Shown piece after piece: positions 54,989 through 64,000 of a stretch of DNA of 64,000 nt; within the stretch, counting starts at the first letter, position 1, and every line of letters starts with the position of its first letter. The notes below the pieces were generated by a model. It made no database searches and was not told the DNA's origin. It worked only from the letters and a program-made list of their open reading frames with translations. Position numbers and translations under genes: made by a program. This DNA is from Lentzea tibetensis (GTDB lineage Bacteria > Actinomycetota > Actinomycetes > Mycobacteriales > Pseudonocardiaceae): positions 124,001 through 188,000 of the forward strand of contig NZ_VOBR01000001.1 of NCBI RefSeq assembly GCF_007845675.1, given 5' to 3'.

Positions 54989-55606
54989 GTGACAGCCAGT
55001 TCGAAGCCGCGCGCGGACGCACTCAACGTGCTGTCGGGCGAGGAGCTCAGCTCCGCAGCCCAGCGCGAACGGCGCAAGCGGATCGTCGACGCGACCATCG
55101 CACTGGCGTCCAAGGGCGGGTTCGACGCCGTGCAGATGCGCGCGGTCGCCGAACGCGCCGACGTCGCACTCGGCACGCTCTACCGCTACTTCCCCTCCAA
55201 GGTCCACCTGCTGGTGTCCAGCCTCGGCGTCGAGCTCGAACGCGCGCAGGAAAAGATGGATCGCACCAGCATTCCCGGCGACAACGCCTACGAGCGCGTG
55301 CTGTTCGTGCTCGGCCGGATCACCCGCGGCCTGCAGCGCAACCCGCACCTCACCGAGGCGATGACCCGCGCGTTCACCTTCGCCGACGCGTCAGCCGGGG
55401 CCGAGGTCGACAACGTCGCGCGGCTCATGGAGCGCATGTTCACCAGGGCCATGAGCGAGGAAGAGCCGACCGACGAGCACAAGGCCATCGCCCGCGTGAT
55501 CAGCGACGTGTGGCTGTCCAACCTCGTCGCCTGGGTGACGCGGCGGGCCACCGCGTCCGATGTCGCCACCCGGCTCGAGCTCACCGTTCGGCTGCTGCTG
55601 GCCTGA
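54989..55606 (+). CDS. kstR: TetR-family cholesterol repressor KstR
   Basis: 205-residue TetR regulator. HTH blocks RRKRIVDATIALASKGGFDA, MRAVAERADV and GTLYRYFPSKVHLL lie near residues 28-72 and match KstR closely, as does WLSNLVAWVTRRA near 180. KstR represses upper cholesterol genes and is released by 3-oxo-cholestenoyl-CoA. GTG 54989 follows AGGAGG by about 10 nt. Its own operator precedes it. Its 3' end overlaps the convergent hydrolase by 26 nt. Confidence 0.95.
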   Translation: MTASSKPRADALNVLSGEELSSAAQRERRKRIVDATIALASKGGFDAVQMRAVAERADVALGTLYRYFPSKVHLLVSSLGVELERAQEKMDRTSIPGDNAYERVLFVLGRITRGLQRNPHLTEAMTRAFTFADASAGAEVDNVARLMERMFTRAMSEEEPTDEHKAIARVISDVWLSNLVAWVTRRATASDVATRLELTVRLLLA

Positions 55607-57674: not shown

Positions 57675-59882
57675 CTACCGTTGATTCCCCGCCTGGGCGG
57701 GTGTTCCGGCTTCCACGAGCCCGGTCAGCGCCTGCGGCAACGGGCCGTGGTGCAGGACGCCGAGGCGTTGGGTGGCACGGGTCAGTGCGACGTAGAGCTC
57801 GGCCGCACCGCGCGGGCCGTCGGCGAGGATCCGTTCCGGGTCCACGACCAGGACGGAGTCGAACTCCAGTCCCTTCGTCTCCGACGCCGCCACCGCACCC
57901 GGCACATCCGGTGGCCCGATCACGACGCTGGTGCCCTCGCGACCGGCTTCGTCGCGGCCGAACTCCTCGACGGCAGCGGGCAGTTCGTCCTCGGTGACCA
58001 GCCGGGACCACGGCTGGACGCCGCACGCGCGGACCGACTCCGGTGGCTGGACCTGGGGTGCGAACTCGGCGAGCAGCGCGGCGGCGACGGTCATGATCTC
58101 CGCGGGCGTGCGGTAGTTCACCGTCAGCGACCGGTAGATCCAGCGGCCGGGTGCGTACGGCTCCAGCATCTCCGCCCACGACCTCGCGCCGGCCTCCGAC
58201 CGGCGCTGGGCGAGGTCGCCGACCACCGTGAAGGACTTGCCGGGGCAGCGCCGCATCAGCACCCGCCAGTCCATTTCGGACAGTTCCTGCGCTTCGTCGA
58301 CCACGACGTGCCGGTAGGTCCAGTCGCGGTCCGCGGCGGCGCGTTCGACGAGCTCGCGGGTGTCCTGCTCGACGAAGCGATCCGCCAGGTCCTCCGCGTA
58401 GAGCAGGTCCGTGGCGAACAGGTGGTCCTCGTCGTCCATCGAGTCCTGGCGGCCGACGAGGCTGTCCAGCACGTTCATGGCGTACTCGGCCTCGGCCTTC
58501 TGCTCCCGCGCGGCAGCCTGCGCGGCGGCCTGGTCCGCCGCCTTGTCCCGGCCGAGCAGGTCGACGAGCTCGTCGAGCAACGGCACGTCCGACACCGTCC
58601 AGGCGTCGCCGTCGGCACGCAGCAGCGCCGGGTCGGCACCAGCCGCCCGCAGTCGTTCGAGGGACGAGTACAGCGGTGCCAGCAGTGTTTCCGGCGTGAG
58701 CACCGGCCAGAGCTCGTCGAGCGCGGCGGTGAACGCGTCGTCGTTCGCGAGCTCGTTGAGCATGTCCTTGCGCATCCGCTCCCACGCGCCGCGGTCCGAG
58801 CGGCTCAGCCAGGTCCGGCCGATCCGGCCGATGGCCCGTTCGGTGAGCACGTACGTGACGATCTCGGTGAACGTCACGCGGGCCTCGTTGTGCGGCAACC
58901 CGCTCGCCCGCGCCTCGTCCCTCGCCCACTCGGCGGTCTCGGCGTTGATCTGCACCGCGACGCCGCCCAGGTTGATCGGGATCGGCTCCTCCGGCAGCCG
59001 TTGCCGGTCGGCGATCGCCGCCTCGAGCACACCCAGCATCTTGAGCGAGCCCTTGATCCGGGCGGCTTCCGGCGGGTCCTCGGCGGTGACGCGCAGGCCG
59101 GGCACGAGTCCGCCGGTGGTCGTGAACACCACGTCGGACTCGCCCAGCGACGGCAGCACGCGGCCGATGTGGTTCAGGAACGCCGGGTTGGGCCCGACCA
59201 CGAGCACGCCGTGGCGTTCCATCCGCTCCCGCTGGGTGTAGAGCAGGTACGCGACGCGGTGCAGCGCCACCACGGTCTTCCCGGTGCCGGGACCGCCCTC
59301 GATCACCAGCACACCGGGGTGGTCGAGCCGGATGATCTCGTCCTGCTCGGCCTGGATCGTCGCCACGATGTCGCGCATGCCCTCGCCGCGCGGCGCGTTG
59401 ACCGCCGCGAGCAGGGCCGCGTCCCCTCGTTCGTCGACTCCGGGGCGGCCGAGCACCTCGTCGGTGAACTCGAGCACCTGACGCCCGCGGGTGTGGAACT
59501 GGCGACGCCTGCGCATGTTCTCCGGGTTCGCACCGGTGGCGACGTAGAACGCGCGCGACGCAGGCGCCCGCCAGTCGAGCAGCACCGGGTCGAACTCGTT
59601 CTTCTCGTCGAAGAGACCGATCCGGCCGATGTACGAATGTTCGCCCGAAAGGGTGTCCAACCGGCCGAAGCACAGGCCGTTGTCCGCCACGTCCAGCCGC
59701 TTCGCCTCCTTGGCCAGCGCGCGCACGTGGAAGTCCCGTTCCATGGGTGTCCCGCCGGTTCCGCGCAACGCCGCGGTGAACTCGCCCTTCACCCGCGCGC
59801 GCTCGGCGTCGAGCCGCGTGTAGAGCCCGGCGACGTAATTGCGCTCGGACCGCAGTTCCTCTTCGTACCCCTGAGCTGACAC
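57675..59882 (-). CDS. helR: HelR/HelD-type RNA-polymerase-binding ATPase
   Basis: 735-residue superfamily 1 helicase-like protein. An N-terminal charged helical arm (about 1-65), Walker A GGPGTGKT (196-203), then VVVDEAQELSEMDW near 540, NYRTPAEIMTV near 585 and TKGLEFDSVLVVD...ALTRATQRLGV at the end. This is the HelD class, which pulls RNA polymerase off DNA. HelR members protect polymerase from rifamycins. GTG 59882 has GAGGGG close upstream. It lies 47 nt downstream of the glycosyltransferase in the same direction. Confidence 0.82.
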   Translation of the reverse strand: MSAQGYEEELRSERNYVAGLYTRLDAERARVKGEFTAALRGTGGTPMERDFHVRALAKEAKRLDVADNGLCFGRLDTLSGEHSYIGRIGLFDEKNEFDPVLLDWRAPASRAFYVATGANPENMRRRRQFHTRGRQVLEFTDEVLGRPGVDERGDAALLAAVNAPRGEGMRDIVATIQAEQDEIIRLDHPGVLVIEGGPGTGKTVVALHRVAYLLYTQRERMERHGVLVVGPNPAFLNHIGRVLPSLGESDVVFTTTGGLVPGLRVTAEDPPEAARIKGSLKMLGVLEAAIADRQRLPEEPIPINLGGVAVQINAETAEWARDEARASGLPHNEARVTFTEIVTYVLTERAIGRIGRTWLSRSDRGAWERMRKDMLNELANDDAFTAALDELWPVLTPETLLAPLYSSLERLRAAGADPALLRADGDAWTVSDVPLLDELVDLLGRDKAADQAAAQAAAREQKAEAEYAMNVLDSLVGRQDSMDDEDHLFATDLLYAEDLADRFVEQDTRELVERAAADRDWTYRHVVVDEAQELSEMDWRVLMRRCPGKSFTVVGDLAQRRSEAGARSWAEMLEPYAPGRWIYRSLTVNYRTPAEIMTVAAALLAEFAPQVQPPESVRACGVQPWSRLVTEDELPAAVEEFGRDEAGREGTSVVIGPPDVPGAVAASETKGLEFDSVLVVDPERILADGPRGAAELYVALTRATQRLGVLHHGPLPQALTGLVEAGTPAQAGNQR

Positions 59883-59929
59883 ATTCCCCTCACAGCGCCT
59901 GACTGATTTCAGATTCGATCCCGCAGCGT

Positions 59930-61171
59930 TCACGCGGACACCGGTGACCTGCGCCGGCTGGTCGCGTCGACCAGCAGCGAAGCGGCCACCGCCGCCCCGT
60001 CACCGCGGATCGTGCCCGCTACGGCGGTGGCTCGCGCGCGGGTCTCGGGGGCCAGTGCCGTGCCGAGCGCGACTGACAGGGACTCCGCGGTCGGAGCCGG
60101 ACCGTCGTGCGCCGCACCGATGCCCAGGTCGGCCACCCGGCCCGCGAAGTAGGGCTGGTCCCCTCCCTGGGGCACCACCACCTGCGGCGCGCCGGCACGG
60201 GTGGCTGTCGTCGTGGTGCCCGCGCCGCCGTGGTGCACGACGGCGGCCACCTGCGAGAACAGTACCTGCTGGTTGACCTCGCCGACGGCGAGGCAGTCGT
60301 CGTGGCCGTCGACGACTGCCAGGTCGGCCCAGCCGCGGGCGACGAGCACGCGGCGGCCCTGCGCGCGGATCGCTTCGACGGCCACCTGGGCCACGTCCTT
60401 CGACGCGCCCATGGGCATGCTGCCGAAACCCACGTACACCGGTGGTGCGCCGGCGTCCAGGAACGCCACCAGCTCGGCCGGCAGCGGCCGTTCGTCCGGC
60501 AGGATCCACGCACCGGTCTGCACGACGTCGTGGTCCGGCGTCTCGTGCCACGGGGCCAGCACCGGGTCCGCCGCCAGCCACGGGCGGTCGGTGAAGGCGT
60601 GGTCGCGGACGTCGTTCACCGGCGGCAGGCCGTTCGCCGCCCGGTGGGTGTTGAGCCCCGCGCCGAACAGCGCGTTCGCGTGCTGGGCGTCCAGGTCCCA
60701 CAGCACCCGGTTGTCGGTCACCTCCGCCGGCAGCGGCCTGCCCGGCCTCGCGAGCGGCGGGTGGTGCGGCGACGGCAGGCTGACCGGCTGGAAGCTCGCG
60801 TACACGTAGCCGATGCCCAGTTTCTCGGCGACCGACCGCGCACCGGCCGCAGCGGGCAACAACCCGGTCGCCACCACCACGTCACATCCCTCGGCCGCCG
60901 GGCCGAGCTCGTCGAACTGCGCCGCGACCAGCTGGGCCGCGCGCTCGGAAACGCCCGCCGTCGACGGCGGCGTCGCCCCGGTCACCAACGCGCGCACCGA
61001 CTGGCCGACCGGCACCATCGGCACACCGACGTCGACCAGCCGCGCCGCGAACTCCTCGTCCGGCGGCGCGCACACCCGCACCTCGACGTCGAGTGCCCGC
61101 AGTCGCACCGCCAGTGCGACCAGCGGCTCGACGCCCCCGCGCGAGTCGTACCCCGACAACAACACACGCAC
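59930..61171 (-). CDS. rgt: Rifamycin-type glycosyltransferase
   Basis: 413-residue GT1 glycosyltransferase. It opens with R-V-L-L-S-G-Y-D-S-R-G-G-V-E-P and carries the C-terminal nucleotide-sugar motif HHGGAGTTTTATRAGAPQVV near residue 300, with PQGGDQPYFAGRVADLG. This is the MGT/Rgt group, whose rifamycin members inactivate the drug by glycosylation of the ansa chain. GTG 61171 gives the usual M-R-V-L-L start; ATG 61186 is the alternative. An RAE palindrome lies upstream. Specificity rests on the RAE and fold together. Confidence 0.82.
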   Translation of the reverse strand: MRVLLSGYDSRGGVEPLVALAVRLRALDVEVRVCAPPDEEFAARLVDVGVPMVPVGQSVRALVTGATPPSTAGVSERAAQLVAAQFDELGPAAEGCDVVVATGLLPAAAGARSVAEKLGIGYVYASFQPVSLPSPHHPPLARPGRPLPAEVTDNRVLWDLDAQHANALFGAGLNTHRAANGLPPVNDVRDHAFTDRPWLAADPVLAPWHETPDHDVVQTGAWILPDERPLPAELVAFLDAGAPPVYVGFGSMPMGASKDVAQVAVEAIRAQGRRVLVARGWADLAVVDGHDDCLAVGEVNQQVLFSQVAAVVHHGGAGTTTTATRAGAPQVVVPQGGDQPYFAGRVADLGIGAAHDGPAPTAESLSVALGTALAPETRARATAVAGTIRGDGAAVAASLLVDATSRRRSPVSA

Positions 61172-61229
61172 TTCGCAAACCCCCATTGCCGCGGAATCTG
61201 GCTACGGCCGACGATTCTGCGGTGCGAGT

Positions 61230-61249
61230 GGGGTCTTGCCGCAAGCCCC
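61230..61249. promoter_or_regulatory. Rifamycin-associated element (RAE)
   Basis: The bases GGGGTCTTGCCGCAAGCCCC, read on the minus strand as GGGGCTTGCGGCAAGACCCC, form the RAE palindrome known upstream of rifamycin-inactivation genes; to my memory of the consensus one base differs. It is 58 nt upstream of the glycosyltransferase GTG. Confidence 0.85.
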
Positions 61250-61272
61250 CCGGTGCGCTATACGTTGAGAGT

Positions 61273-61297
61273 GGAAAGAGTGGGTTTTCCTCTTTCC
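61273..61297. terminator. Weak hairpin after the minus-strand gene at 61,305
   Basis: GGAAAGAG and CTCTTTCC form an 8-bp stem with a 9-nt loop just downstream of the stop of the membrane protein gene. It could end that transcript before the RAE promoter. The stem is not GC-rich and has no T-run. Confidence 0.4.
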
Positions 61298-61304
61298 CTC
61301 ATCC

Positions 61305-62213
61305 TCACGCCTTGCAATCCGCCTTCACCGCGGACGCGGCGTGGTGCGCGTACGTGGCCCCGGACCCGTTCCAGTCCTGGCCCCGAGTCAGCAGCTGAAG
61401 CGCGAGCTTCCCGTCCGTGACCTTGTAGGACCCGACTCCGACCCACTTCCCGCGCTGGTCGACCTGCTTGATCTCGAACGACCCCAGCGGCGACCCGGAC
61501 GGCTGGTGCCCGCCGAACACCCGGTAGGACGTGGGGTTGCCGCCGACCTCCTGCAGGTCCCCGTTGGGGATGAACACCGACAGGGCGCAGGTACCGGAGG
61601 AAACGGCACCGGTGGAGAACGTCCACAGCCCGTAGGCGGAGCTGTCGTCCTTGGTGGCGGATCCGGACATGGGGATCGACACGAACGCCGACCCGCACTT
61701 GCCGTCGCCGTGGTCGACCCAGCCTTCACGCCCGTCGCGGAACGTGCCGACCCCGTTGAACCCGCCGCACCCAGGCCCCGCGGTACCGGAGTACGCGGGC
61801 CCGGCCGGAGGCTTCACGATCGGGTTGGTCGGCGTGGCGCTGCTGCCGGGAGGCTGCGACGAGCTCGTTGCCGGCGCGGTCGACGACTGCTGGCCCGACG
61901 ACGGGATCTGCGGGTCGATCACACCGGGGATGTAGCCGTTGCCGGTGCCCGTCTGCTGGGCGATGCCAGCCGGGTTGTCGTCCGAGTCGCCGAGGGTGCC
62001 GATGTACACGGCCGTGGTGACCAGCAGTGCGCCCGCCACGGCCAAAGTGATGATCTTCGGCTTGAAGGTCATCGGCAGCGGCAGCTTGCCGCGCCTGGTG
62101 GCCTCCGGGTCCAACACTTCCCACGACTGGGCGCGTGACTGGCTCCTGGCGCGGGCGTCCGCCATCAGGGCGGGGTCCACCGCCGGGTGCTCGCCCGACC
62201 ACTCTGTCGCCAT
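61305..62213 (-). CDS. Membrane-anchored extracytoplasmic protein, unknown
   Basis: 302 residues. A cytoplasmic N-terminus of about 50 residues is followed by one membrane helix (IITLAVAGALLVTTAVYIG near residue 55), a Ser/Thr/Pro/Gln-rich linker (about 80-145) and a globular C-terminal domain with four cysteines (GPGCGGFNG, GDGKCGSAF, SGTCALSVF, DCKA). The domain is likely outside the cell, with two disulfides. ATG 62213 has GGGAG upstream. No function recognised. The 187 nt before it hold only the terminator listed next. Confidence 0.75.
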   Translation of the reverse strand: MATEWSGEHPAVDPALMADARARSQSRAQSWEVLDPEATRRGKLPLPMTFKPKIITLAVAGALLVTTAVYIGTLGDSDDNPAGIAQQTGTGNGYIPGVIDPQIPSSGQQSSTAPATSSSQPPGSSATPTNPIVKPPAGPAYSGTAGPGCGGFNGVGTFRDGREGWVDHGDGKCGSAFVSIPMSGSATKDDSSAYGLWTFSTGAVSSGTCALSVFIPNGDLQEVGGNPTSYRVFGGHQPSGSPLGSFEIKQVDQRGKWVGVGSYKVTDGKLALQLLTRGQDWNGSGATYAHHAASAVKADCKA

Positions 62214-62353
62214 GCTCCCTGCCTTTTCACTCACAAGTCTGTAGCCCGAGCGTCTCCGAGACGTCGGCACTGTTCCATGCAGGTGTACGGACGGGACCAG
62301 TGGCACGATTTTTCTGACTCGATACCGAGACCAGATCGTTTCACGGAGCTGGA

Positions 62354-62389
62354 CGCGTCGCGTTCCGCCAAGTGGCGGAACACGACGCG
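62354..62389. terminator. Strong hairpin after the FG-GAP gene
   Basis: A 16-bp stem with a single C-A mismatch and an AAGT loop starts 12 nt after the stop of the gene at 62,401. No T-run follows, as is common in actinomycetes. Confidence 0.65.
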
Positions 62390-62400
62390 CTTGTCGCTGG

Positions 62401-64000
62401 TCAGACCGATGGGCGTGGCAGTTCACTGCCCGCAGCGAACCAGTCGTGCCACTTCACGCCGTCACCCGCGAACGCGGTGCCCGTAGAGGTTGCCACGTAC
62501 ACGTCCGCGGCGGTACCGCGGGTGTAGGTCACGATGTCGGCCTTGCCGTCGCCGGTGAAGTCCGCGACGCCGGGGACCTCGTCACCGACCGCGAAGTGGC
62601 CGTGCCACACGGACGCCGTCCCGAAGGACGTGCCGGTCGAGCGGGCCACGGTCACCTGGCCACCGGAGAACAGCACCACGTCGTCACGACCGTCGCCGTC
62701 CACGTCGCCCAGCTCCGGCTTGCCGGGCAGGTTGTCGTGCCACCTCACGCCGTCACCCTCGAACGACGCGCCGGTGGACAGGGCCGCATAGGCCGCGCCG
62801 CCGGTGAACGTGACGATGTCGTCGCGCCCGTCGCCGTTGATGTCACCCGCGACCGGGGTCTCGGTGCCGGCCGCGAAGTGGTCGTGCCACTTCCAGCCGG
62901 TGCCCACGAACGAACGGCCGTTGGACAGCGCCACGAACACGTCCGCCGAGTCGCCTCGGGTGAACGTCGCGATGTCGTCGCGCCCGTCGCCGTTGAAGTC
63001 GCCGACCAGCGGCACCTCGGTGCCCGGCGCGAACAGGCCGTGCCACATCCAGGCGTCCTGCACGAACTTCGTGCCGTCGGACAGGGACACGTAGACCCGG
63101 CCGTCGCCCTTGGTGAACGTGACGACGTCGGCCCTGCCGTCGCCGTCGAAGTCACCGGACATCGGGATCTCCGCGCCGACTGCGAAGTGGTCGTGCCACT
63201 TCACGCCGTTGCCGGTGAAGCCCGACCCGGTCGAGGTCGCCGCGTACACGTCCGCCGCGTCGCCGCGGGTGAACGTGAGCACGTCGTCCCGGCCGTCACC
63301 GTCCACATCGGACACGTTGGAGCCGCGCACCTTGCCGCTGACGACCGCGGACCGCGCACCCTCGTTGCCGGACGCGTCCACCGCGGCGACGCGGTAGCTC
63401 CACGTCTCCCCCGGCTTCAGCGCGCCGTCCCGGAACTGCGGCACCCGCGTGGTGCCGACCAGCGTCTCCGCACCGCCGGCGCGGTAGCCGTACACGCGGT
63501 AGCTGTCCGCACCGACGTTGTCAGCCGCGGGCGACCACTCCAGGCCGATCGAGTGCACCTTCGTACCGACCGTCCTGACCTGAGCAGGCGCGGACGGCGC
63601 GGCGGTGTCCGCGAACGCGGGCACCAGGCTGTCGACCTGGTACTGGGCCGCGGTCCAGGTGCCCTGCGGCCTCAGCGTCACGGTGATCTGCGACTTCGCG
63701 GTCGCGGGCAGCGTGAACGAGTCCTCGAGCCAGCGCGAGGTCCCGTTGCGCAGCGGCTGCACCCAGGTGCCGACCGGCACGCCGTCGACGAGCACGTCCG
63801 CGCGCGCCGGGGCGTTCTGGTCGCTGGTCCGGCGCAGCAACGCGGCACCCTTCACCGAGATCTTGAACGACACCGGCGAGGTGCTGCTCCGCACGTCGTC
63901 GCGCAGGACCACGTCGTCGTCATCGCCCTCGTACTGCGCGGACAACGGGGATTGGCCGCCGCCCGCCTCGGTCCAGCCGTGCGCGGACCGGCTCACCGCG
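62401..64000 (-). CDS. Fn3/FG-GAP-repeat extracellular protein, partial
   Basis: The 5' end lies outside the window. Visible part, about 533 residues: a beta-rich, N-terminal lectin-like segment, a fibronectin type III domain (APAQVRTVGTKVHSIGLEWS through the VAAVDASGNEG strand), then six repeats of about 46-52 residues, each with a D-x-D/N-G-D-G-R-x-D calcium loop and W-H-D or W-H-G near the end. Such repeats fold into a beta-propeller in secreted actinomycete glycosidases and adhesins. No catalytic domain is visible in this part. Confidence 0.85.
   Translation of the reverse strand, partial: AVSRSAHGWTEAGGGQSPLSAQYEGDDDDVVLRDDVRSSTSPVSFKISVKGAALLRRTSDQNAPARADVLVDGVPVGTWVQPLRNGTSRWLEDSFTLPATAKSQITVTLRPQGTWTAAQYQVDSLVPAFADTAAPSAPAQVRTVGTKVHSIGLEWSPAADNVGADSYRVYGYRAGGAETLVGTTRVPQFRDGALKPGETWSYRVAAVDASGNEGARSAVVSGKVRGSNVSDVDGDGRDDVLTFTRGDAADVYAATSTGSGFTGNGVKWHDHFAVGAEIPMSGDFDGDGRADVVTFTKGDGRVYVSLSDGTKFVQDAWMWHGLFAPGTEVPLVGDFNGDGRDDIATFTRGDSADVFVALSNGRSFVGTGWKWHDHFAAGTETPVAGDINGDGRDDIVTFTGGAAYAALSTGASFEGDGVRWHDNLPGKPELGDVDGDGRDDVVLFSGGQVTVARSTGTSFGTASVWHGHFAVGDEVPGVADFTGDGKADIVTYTRGTAADVYVATSTGTAFAGDGVKWHDWFAAGSELPRPSV

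Follow-up and report, generated by a model that had tools for sequence, protein, structure and literature searches.

Background

In actinobacteria a palindrome known as the rifamycin-associated element (RAE) controls the genes rgt, rox, rph, arr and helR/helD, according to two reports (PMC10719064, PMC8655204). Here we describe an RAE and the genes behind it in Lentzea tibetensis, within a stretch of 64,000 nucleotides (assembly GCF_007845675.1, contig NZ_VOBR01000001.1, positions 124,001 to 188,000 of the forward strand) that is called the window throughout; it carries a glycosyltransferase (GT) gene and a gene for a HelD/HelR-type RNA polymerase ATPase that probably form one rifamycin-resistance operon, under a predicted pair of divergent promoters centred on the RAE and with a hairpin unit on the antisense side. 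The regulon is reportedly the subject of papers by Spanogiannopoulos (2014), Surette (2022) and Hurst-Hess (2022).

The RAE overlaps the -35 element of the promoter downstream of it, and the mechanism is left open in the papers that say so (PMC10719064, PMC12802891); the latter, from 2026, describes the actinobacterial mechanism as still to be elucidated, and both suggest an unknown transcription factor. For helD of Mycobacterium smegmatis, a review reports two sense starts: P1 lies upstream of the RAE at a distance of about 20 bp, and the -35 element of P2 is inside the RAE (PMC10719064). In Bacillus subtilis, helD is kept in check by a stronger antisense promoter, an effect that rifampicin relieves; the two promoters are convergent, and shortening the pair so that the polymerases hinder each other abolished induction (PMC12802891).

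Results

One RAE in front of two genes

The consensus of the RAE, which we take to be the 19-bp palindrome GGGNCTTGCNGCAAGNCCC, is matched upstream of the GT gene by a site one mismatch away, and the GT and helicase genes follow on the minus strand, GT first, separated by 47 nt (59883-59929). The palindrome, gene order, single strand and gap had all been proposed in an initial annotation of the window and are borne out. The open frame of the GT spans 59930-61186(-), but the alignment of its relatives begins at MRVLL, and its start is therefore likely to be the GTG at 61171. The helicase start, GTG 59882, has GAGGGG immediately 5' of it and is backed by an end-to-end alignment with M. smegmatis HelD, which lends no support to a longer frame from GTG 59933 overlapping the GT stop.

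A search of the window at up to 3 mismatches found no RAE-like site between the two genes, and the reading of GT and helicase as one operon behind one RAE is well supported by the arrangement. So too is the proposal that a single RAE would serve both drug modification and target rescue, which also agrees with the relatives that could be scored (see below). The accompanying statement that RAEs drive single genes proved too narrow, since GT-helicase pairs behind one RAE recur. The palindrome and its target genes are like those of the known regulon; the window differs in that its RAE would serve two genes and lies in a conserved unit of about 110 bp, which also holds a hairpin and, in mirror image, -10 elements.

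Identity of the glycosyltransferase and the helicase

The initial annotation took the GT to be of the rifamycin glycosyltransferase type, and Rgt is indeed its top curated family, at 537 bits against a cut-off of 800 (NF000354). None of the 73 relatives scanned reached that cut-off either, in a scan whose threshold (E 1e-230) is by arithmetic looser than the curated one, so that "Rgt-like" is a safer name than "Rgt". The GT resembles Rgt in its top family and its upstream RAE, and differs in scoring below the cut-off. Its best match among solved structures is GtfB of the vancomycin pathway (488 bits). Eight of 81 GT proteins were excluded from the alignment, either because the match ran beyond the stop or because it was short.

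The helicase scores 1427 bits against HelD_MYCSM (cut-off 1051) and 1381 bits against motor_HelR_2 (cut-off 1100), and only 469 bits against motor_HelR (NF041254, the Streptomyces venezuelae type; cut-off 750), by which score an identity of the S. venezuelae type is rejected. The earlier HelD/HelR label stands for the family; judged by sequence, the type is that of M. smegmatis HelD and M. abscessus HelR, not that of S. venezuelae HelR. Likeness to the class II proteins extends over the full length, the alignment to M. smegmatis HelD (6yxu), on which a primary-channel loop would be judged, being gap-poor over residues 1-729, and the difference lies in position, as the helicase of the window sits 3' of a GT and not directly behind an RAE of its own.

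Recurrence of the pair

The GT relatives comprised the best 80 of 272 in named genomes, then 29 of the window's own family and 10 others, making 119. Among the best 80, an RAE lies within 110 nt upstream of the GT in 59, and a helicase directly downstream in 20, 19 of the HelR type and one, in Rhodococcus tibetensis, of the window's HelD type. Over the whole set 96 of the 119 have an RAE and 36 have a HelD or HelR gene directly downstream (22 HelR, 14 HelD); all 36 pairs fall among the 96 GTs with an RAE, and 0 of the 23 GTs without one is paired, although in one of these, L254, the match is partial and the sequence taken as upstream may be misplaced. The search of other genomes for an RAE followed by both genes, which the initial annotation had called for, was thus successful, and the view of the pair as a curiosity of the L. 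tibetensis genome is rejected. Many loci on the minus side carry just 600 nt downstream, and a missing second gene there therefore means little.

A second script with a different rule returned 34 pairs (L020 and L025 drop out); in 31 of these the nearest RAE-like string between the genes has at least 6 mismatches, and the other three gaps are too short to score. Two helicase types fill the slot after the GT. GTs partnered with HelR and with HelD are interleaved on a tree of 120 GTs, with one mixed sister pair (L012 and L235, support 90); with 53 of its 117 inner branches open, the tree has poor resolution and does not settle the count of independent pairings. Among the passages returned by searches of an openly licensed library, none described a GT-HelR operon or placed a divergent promoter at the RAE; the original RAE, Rgt and HelR papers, outside that scope, may contain either.

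Two side observations concern these GTs. Three loci with HelR behind an RAE have apparent degraded GT remnants ahead of the helicase gene, recognised in L206 by a short match and in L133 and L215 by eye; this looks like decay of the GT with retention of the helicase. Another GT (L024), 73% identical to that of the window and without an RAE, lies on a contig labelled as a Chloroflexota metagenome-assembled genome and is possibly mis-binned.

The RAE in the genome and across the class

The exact degenerate RAE GGGNCTTGCGGCAAGNCCC occurs in 157 of 394 genomes class-wide, and because the reversed pattern gave three matches in the same table, the element is far above chance. From among the matches listed, 145 exact-RAE loci with flanks were taken; 123 of them have a homologue of a rifamycin-resistance gene within 400 nt (HelR 60, Rox 31, Rph 16, Rgt 10, HelD 6), and 9 further loci have an Arr-like frame called by eye, the one that was checked scoring 207 bits against a cut-off of 130. 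Of seven loci labelled HelD, one (L154) is closer to HelR and another (L201) is only 36% identical. In a separate locus (L144) the RAE is followed by an ABC-transporter-like ATPase frame on the minus side.

The L. tibetensis genome has four clear RAEs: before the operon of the window, before a rifampin-phosphotransferase-like gene that runs off the end of the stretch examined, before a second, divergent Rgt-like GT and before a rifampin monooxygenase (901 bits, cut-off 800). The second GT (L004, contig C28) scores 337 bits and has an RAE upstream and no evident hairpin. The other two long HelD-family genes, on contigs C54 and C19, have no RAE-like site at up to 3 mismatches on those contigs, and the operon of the window appears to hold the sole RAE-linked helicase of the genome as far as a search of that depth reaches.

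Mirror-image promoter bases around the RAE

The listed loci were oriented by gene homology (Rgt, Rox, Rph, Arr, HelR, HelD) and not by their flanks, which was possible for 136 and not for 9 of the 145. In these alignments conservation spans about -60 to +54 around the RAE centre, with a far-upstream background of 0.016 bit (maximum 0.05), giving a conserved control element of about 110 bp as against a palindrome of 19 bp; the initial annotation had seen 20 bp of it. The positions of the predicted promoter elements in the window are given in Table 1.

Table 1. Positions in the window of the genes, the RAE and the predicted promoter and hairpin elements.
Feature	Position	Strand	Basis or remark
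RAE palindrome GGGGCTTGCGGCAAGACCCC	61230..61249	-	one mismatch from consensus
Rgt-like GT1 glycosyltransferase	59930..61171	-	start probably at GTG 61171, with a longer frame opening at ATG 61186
Class II HelD/HelR RNA-polymerase recycling ATPase (assigned by sequence)	57675..59882	-	family scores, alignment
Predicted sense -35, TTGCGG, inside RAE	61239..61244	-	TTG conservation
Predicted sense -10, CAGAAT, 19-nt spacer, for the GT-HelD operon	61214..61219	-	A-11/T-7 in 135/136
Predicted antisense -35, TTGCCG, in overlap with that of the sense promoter	61236..61241	+	
Predicted antisense -10, TACGTT, 19-nt spacer	61261..61266	+	mirror-image A-11/T-7 in 134/136
Hairpin, 8-bp stem, beginning at the predicted antisense start	61273..61297	+	weak T-tail, 3 T in next 8 bases

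The bases A-11 and T-7 are the key bases of bacterial -10 elements. The most constrained flank bases correspond to them, at +22/+26 on the sense side and, in mirror image, at -22/-26 on the antisense side: the sense pair is present in 135 of 136 loci, the antisense pair in 134 and both in 133, three loci failing one side (L109, L147 and L148). Base pairs of the same spacing at other offsets reach a mean of 2.3%, with maxima of 14% on the sense side and 6.6% on the mirror side. In a set of GT loci that was not picked by the exact RAE (59 relatives and the window), the sense bases are present in 60 of 60 and the antisense bases in 57 of 60. The TTG of the -35 element is fixed in the 136 loci, which were selected by a pattern containing it, and is found in 59-60 of the 60. 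At position -12 the sides differ, as the sense side carries C in 126 of 136 loci and the antisense side carries T in 135, so that the -10 types are CANNNT and TANNNT respectively; this suggests that the sense promoter is the weaker of the two. From these bases and the hairpin described below we infer that two promoters would diverge from the RAE as their common -35 core and that an RNA of about 30 nt would be made on the antisense side.

A hairpin at the predicted antisense start

For the hairpin counts 3 near-copies were removed (133 of 136 kept) and then 2 loci with a missing flank, leaving 131. In 41 of them the predicted antisense +1 opens a perfect stem of at least 7 pairs, as compared with a mean of 0.34 (maximum 2) in 200 rounds of shuffling and a mean of 7.2 (maximum 15) when the 3' arms were swapped between loci; as matches with a locus's own partner exceed the swapped-arm controls, the arms covary. 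The stems are anchored at this position, being found in 41, 40 and 38 of the 131 at offsets 0, +1 and +2, in 15 at -1 and in 4 at +4. By gene family, strict stems of at least 6 pairs occur in 9 of 15 Rph, 13 of 32 Rox, 18 of 58 HelR, 4 of 10 Rgt, 1 of 7 HelD and 0 of 9 Arr loci. T-tails (at least 5 T in the 8 bases after the stem) follow the antisense side in 19 of 45 and the sense side in 0 of 45. A known RNA family was sought in six loci, with 0 Rfam matches, and an alternative pairing of a hairpin arm with the RAE was set aside since, by eye, the arms vary while the RAE core is constant.

Neighbourhood of the operon

The initial annotation had placed the operon beside a sterol-catabolic island. 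A KstR-family regulator at about 55049-55606(+), which scores 320 bits (cut-off 280) and has acyl-CoA dehydrogenase-like frames next to it, makes that label plausible; a functional link was not found in one limited look. On the other side, 62401-63996 encodes a protein that carries FG-GAP repeats and weakly matches fibronectin type III.

Discussion

The arrangement that we regard as probable is a two-gene operon under a divergent promoter pair centred on the RAE. A promoter there would transcribe the Rgt-like GT and then the class II HelD/HelR ATPase; from their families, the GT is expected to inactivate rifamycins by the addition of a sugar, and the ATPase to release RNA polymerase from the drug. 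The palindrome would provide overlapping -35 elements to both promoters, and because these overlap, polymerases at the two would be mutually exclusive. The sense promoter, with its poor -10 (CANNNT), would read into the operon, and the antisense promoter, with the better -10 (TANNNT), would start at the first base of the hairpin, be expected to stop after about 30 nt, and presumably keep the sense promoter down under normal conditions. Co-transcription, induction, drug specificity and antisense transcription are all things that we infer from the sequence.

Several observations weigh against this arrangement. The GT misses the Rgt cut-off, and 23 of the 119 GT relatives are without an RAE. Consensus scans of 61100-61400 returned 0 promoters and 0 terminators, where the scan permits spacers of 16-18 nt and the predicted ones are 19. 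The hairpin of the window (-10.8 kcal/mol, z -1.63) is only moderately better than shuffled sequence, 15 of 200 shuffles being equally good, and its T-tail is weak; the strict hairpin is absent from all Arr loci and present in just one labelled HelD. When one mismatch is allowed, 37% of shuffles also attain 7 pairs, and this search, being too permissive, was replaced by the strict one with swapped-arm controls. Finally, of the reported M. smegmatis helD starts, P2 fits a purely divergent scheme and P1 does not, and the reported P1 falls a few bases from the predicted antisense start.

We hold it doubtful, though conceivable, that the antisense start-to-stop unit cycles polymerase and so shuts the weaker sense promoter, with rifamycin breaking the cycle and polymerase itself acting as the sensor. 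In a toy model run with one parameter set, local recapture of the terminated polymerase gave induction of up to about 8-fold, only at high recapture probability, and occlusion alone gave none (fold at most 0.98). The model agrees in this with the B. subtilis result, where overlap of the promoters abolished induction, and simple occlusion therefore does not explain induction. That result (PMC12802891) and the occlusion-only model both favour a different account, to which we would give a little less than even chances, namely that the RAE is the operator of a rifamycin-responsive dimeric regulator, the antisense promoter a by-product and the hairpin a stop against invasion of the neighbouring gene. 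Beyond the -35 bases, the GGG/CCC arms of the palindrome hardly vary (57-60 of 60 loci of the GT set), and a -35 element alone needs no such arms; an unknown transcription factor is also what the two earlier papers suggest (PMC12802891, PMC10719064). A by-product promoter, however, should not have its -10 preserved before six gene families, as is seen in 134 of 136 loci. Given the nearly fixed arms, a palindrome-binding regulator stays at least as likely as local recycling.

The remaining explanations appear less credible. The symmetry about the RAE centre would also suit a protein that binds one long palindrome with the flank bases as its outer half-sites, with no promoters involved, but the two sides share little beyond A-11 and T-7 (CAGAATC and TAnnTTG), the sense side has a start codon and a purine-rich stretch at a leader-like distance, and for M. 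smegmatis helD the start P2, whose -35 lies in the RAE, is reported to have been determined by experiment (PMC10719064); we judge this improbable. A similarly low probability attaches to the idea that the GT uses another acceptor, such as a glycopeptide, that the helicase is a housekeeping HelD and that the RAE is incidental: the match to GtfB, the GT's position under the Rgt cut-off and the helicase's slightly higher score against HelD_MYCSM than against HelR_2 would fit, whereas Rgt is the GT's top curated family, the helicase passes the HelR_2 cut-off, most GT relatives have an RAE (96 of 119), and RAE loci otherwise precede rifamycin-resistance genes. Slightly less remote, though still unlikely, is a hairpin that terminates the upstream gene on the same strand (61305-62426) and not an antisense RNA. 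In the window it lies 8 nt beyond the stop codon of that gene, and the consensus scans there do not favour the antisense direction; yet across loci the distance from hairpin to RAE is fixed before different gene families, stem positions peak close to the predicted antisense start, and T-tails are commoner on the antisense side than on the sense side.

The divergent pair proposed here invites comparison with the dual-promoter rifampicin alarm described for helD and pps in B. subtilis, which likewise sets a weak sense promoter and an apparently stronger antisense one before helD and a drug-modifying gene (PMC12802891). The promoters of the alarm are convergent and must not overlap (PMC12802891), while those predicted at the RAE would point away from each other, share bases between their -35 elements and have a hairpin where the antisense RNA begins; the RAE promoters would therefore not be a pair of the B. 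subtilis type.

If the RAE is indeed a divergent promoter pair, it would link the actinobacterial and Bacillus responses to rifampicin, and the question of how rifamycins are sensed would become directly testable. In the operon itself a single switch would govern drug modification together with target rescue, and two types of helicase are found in the second place.

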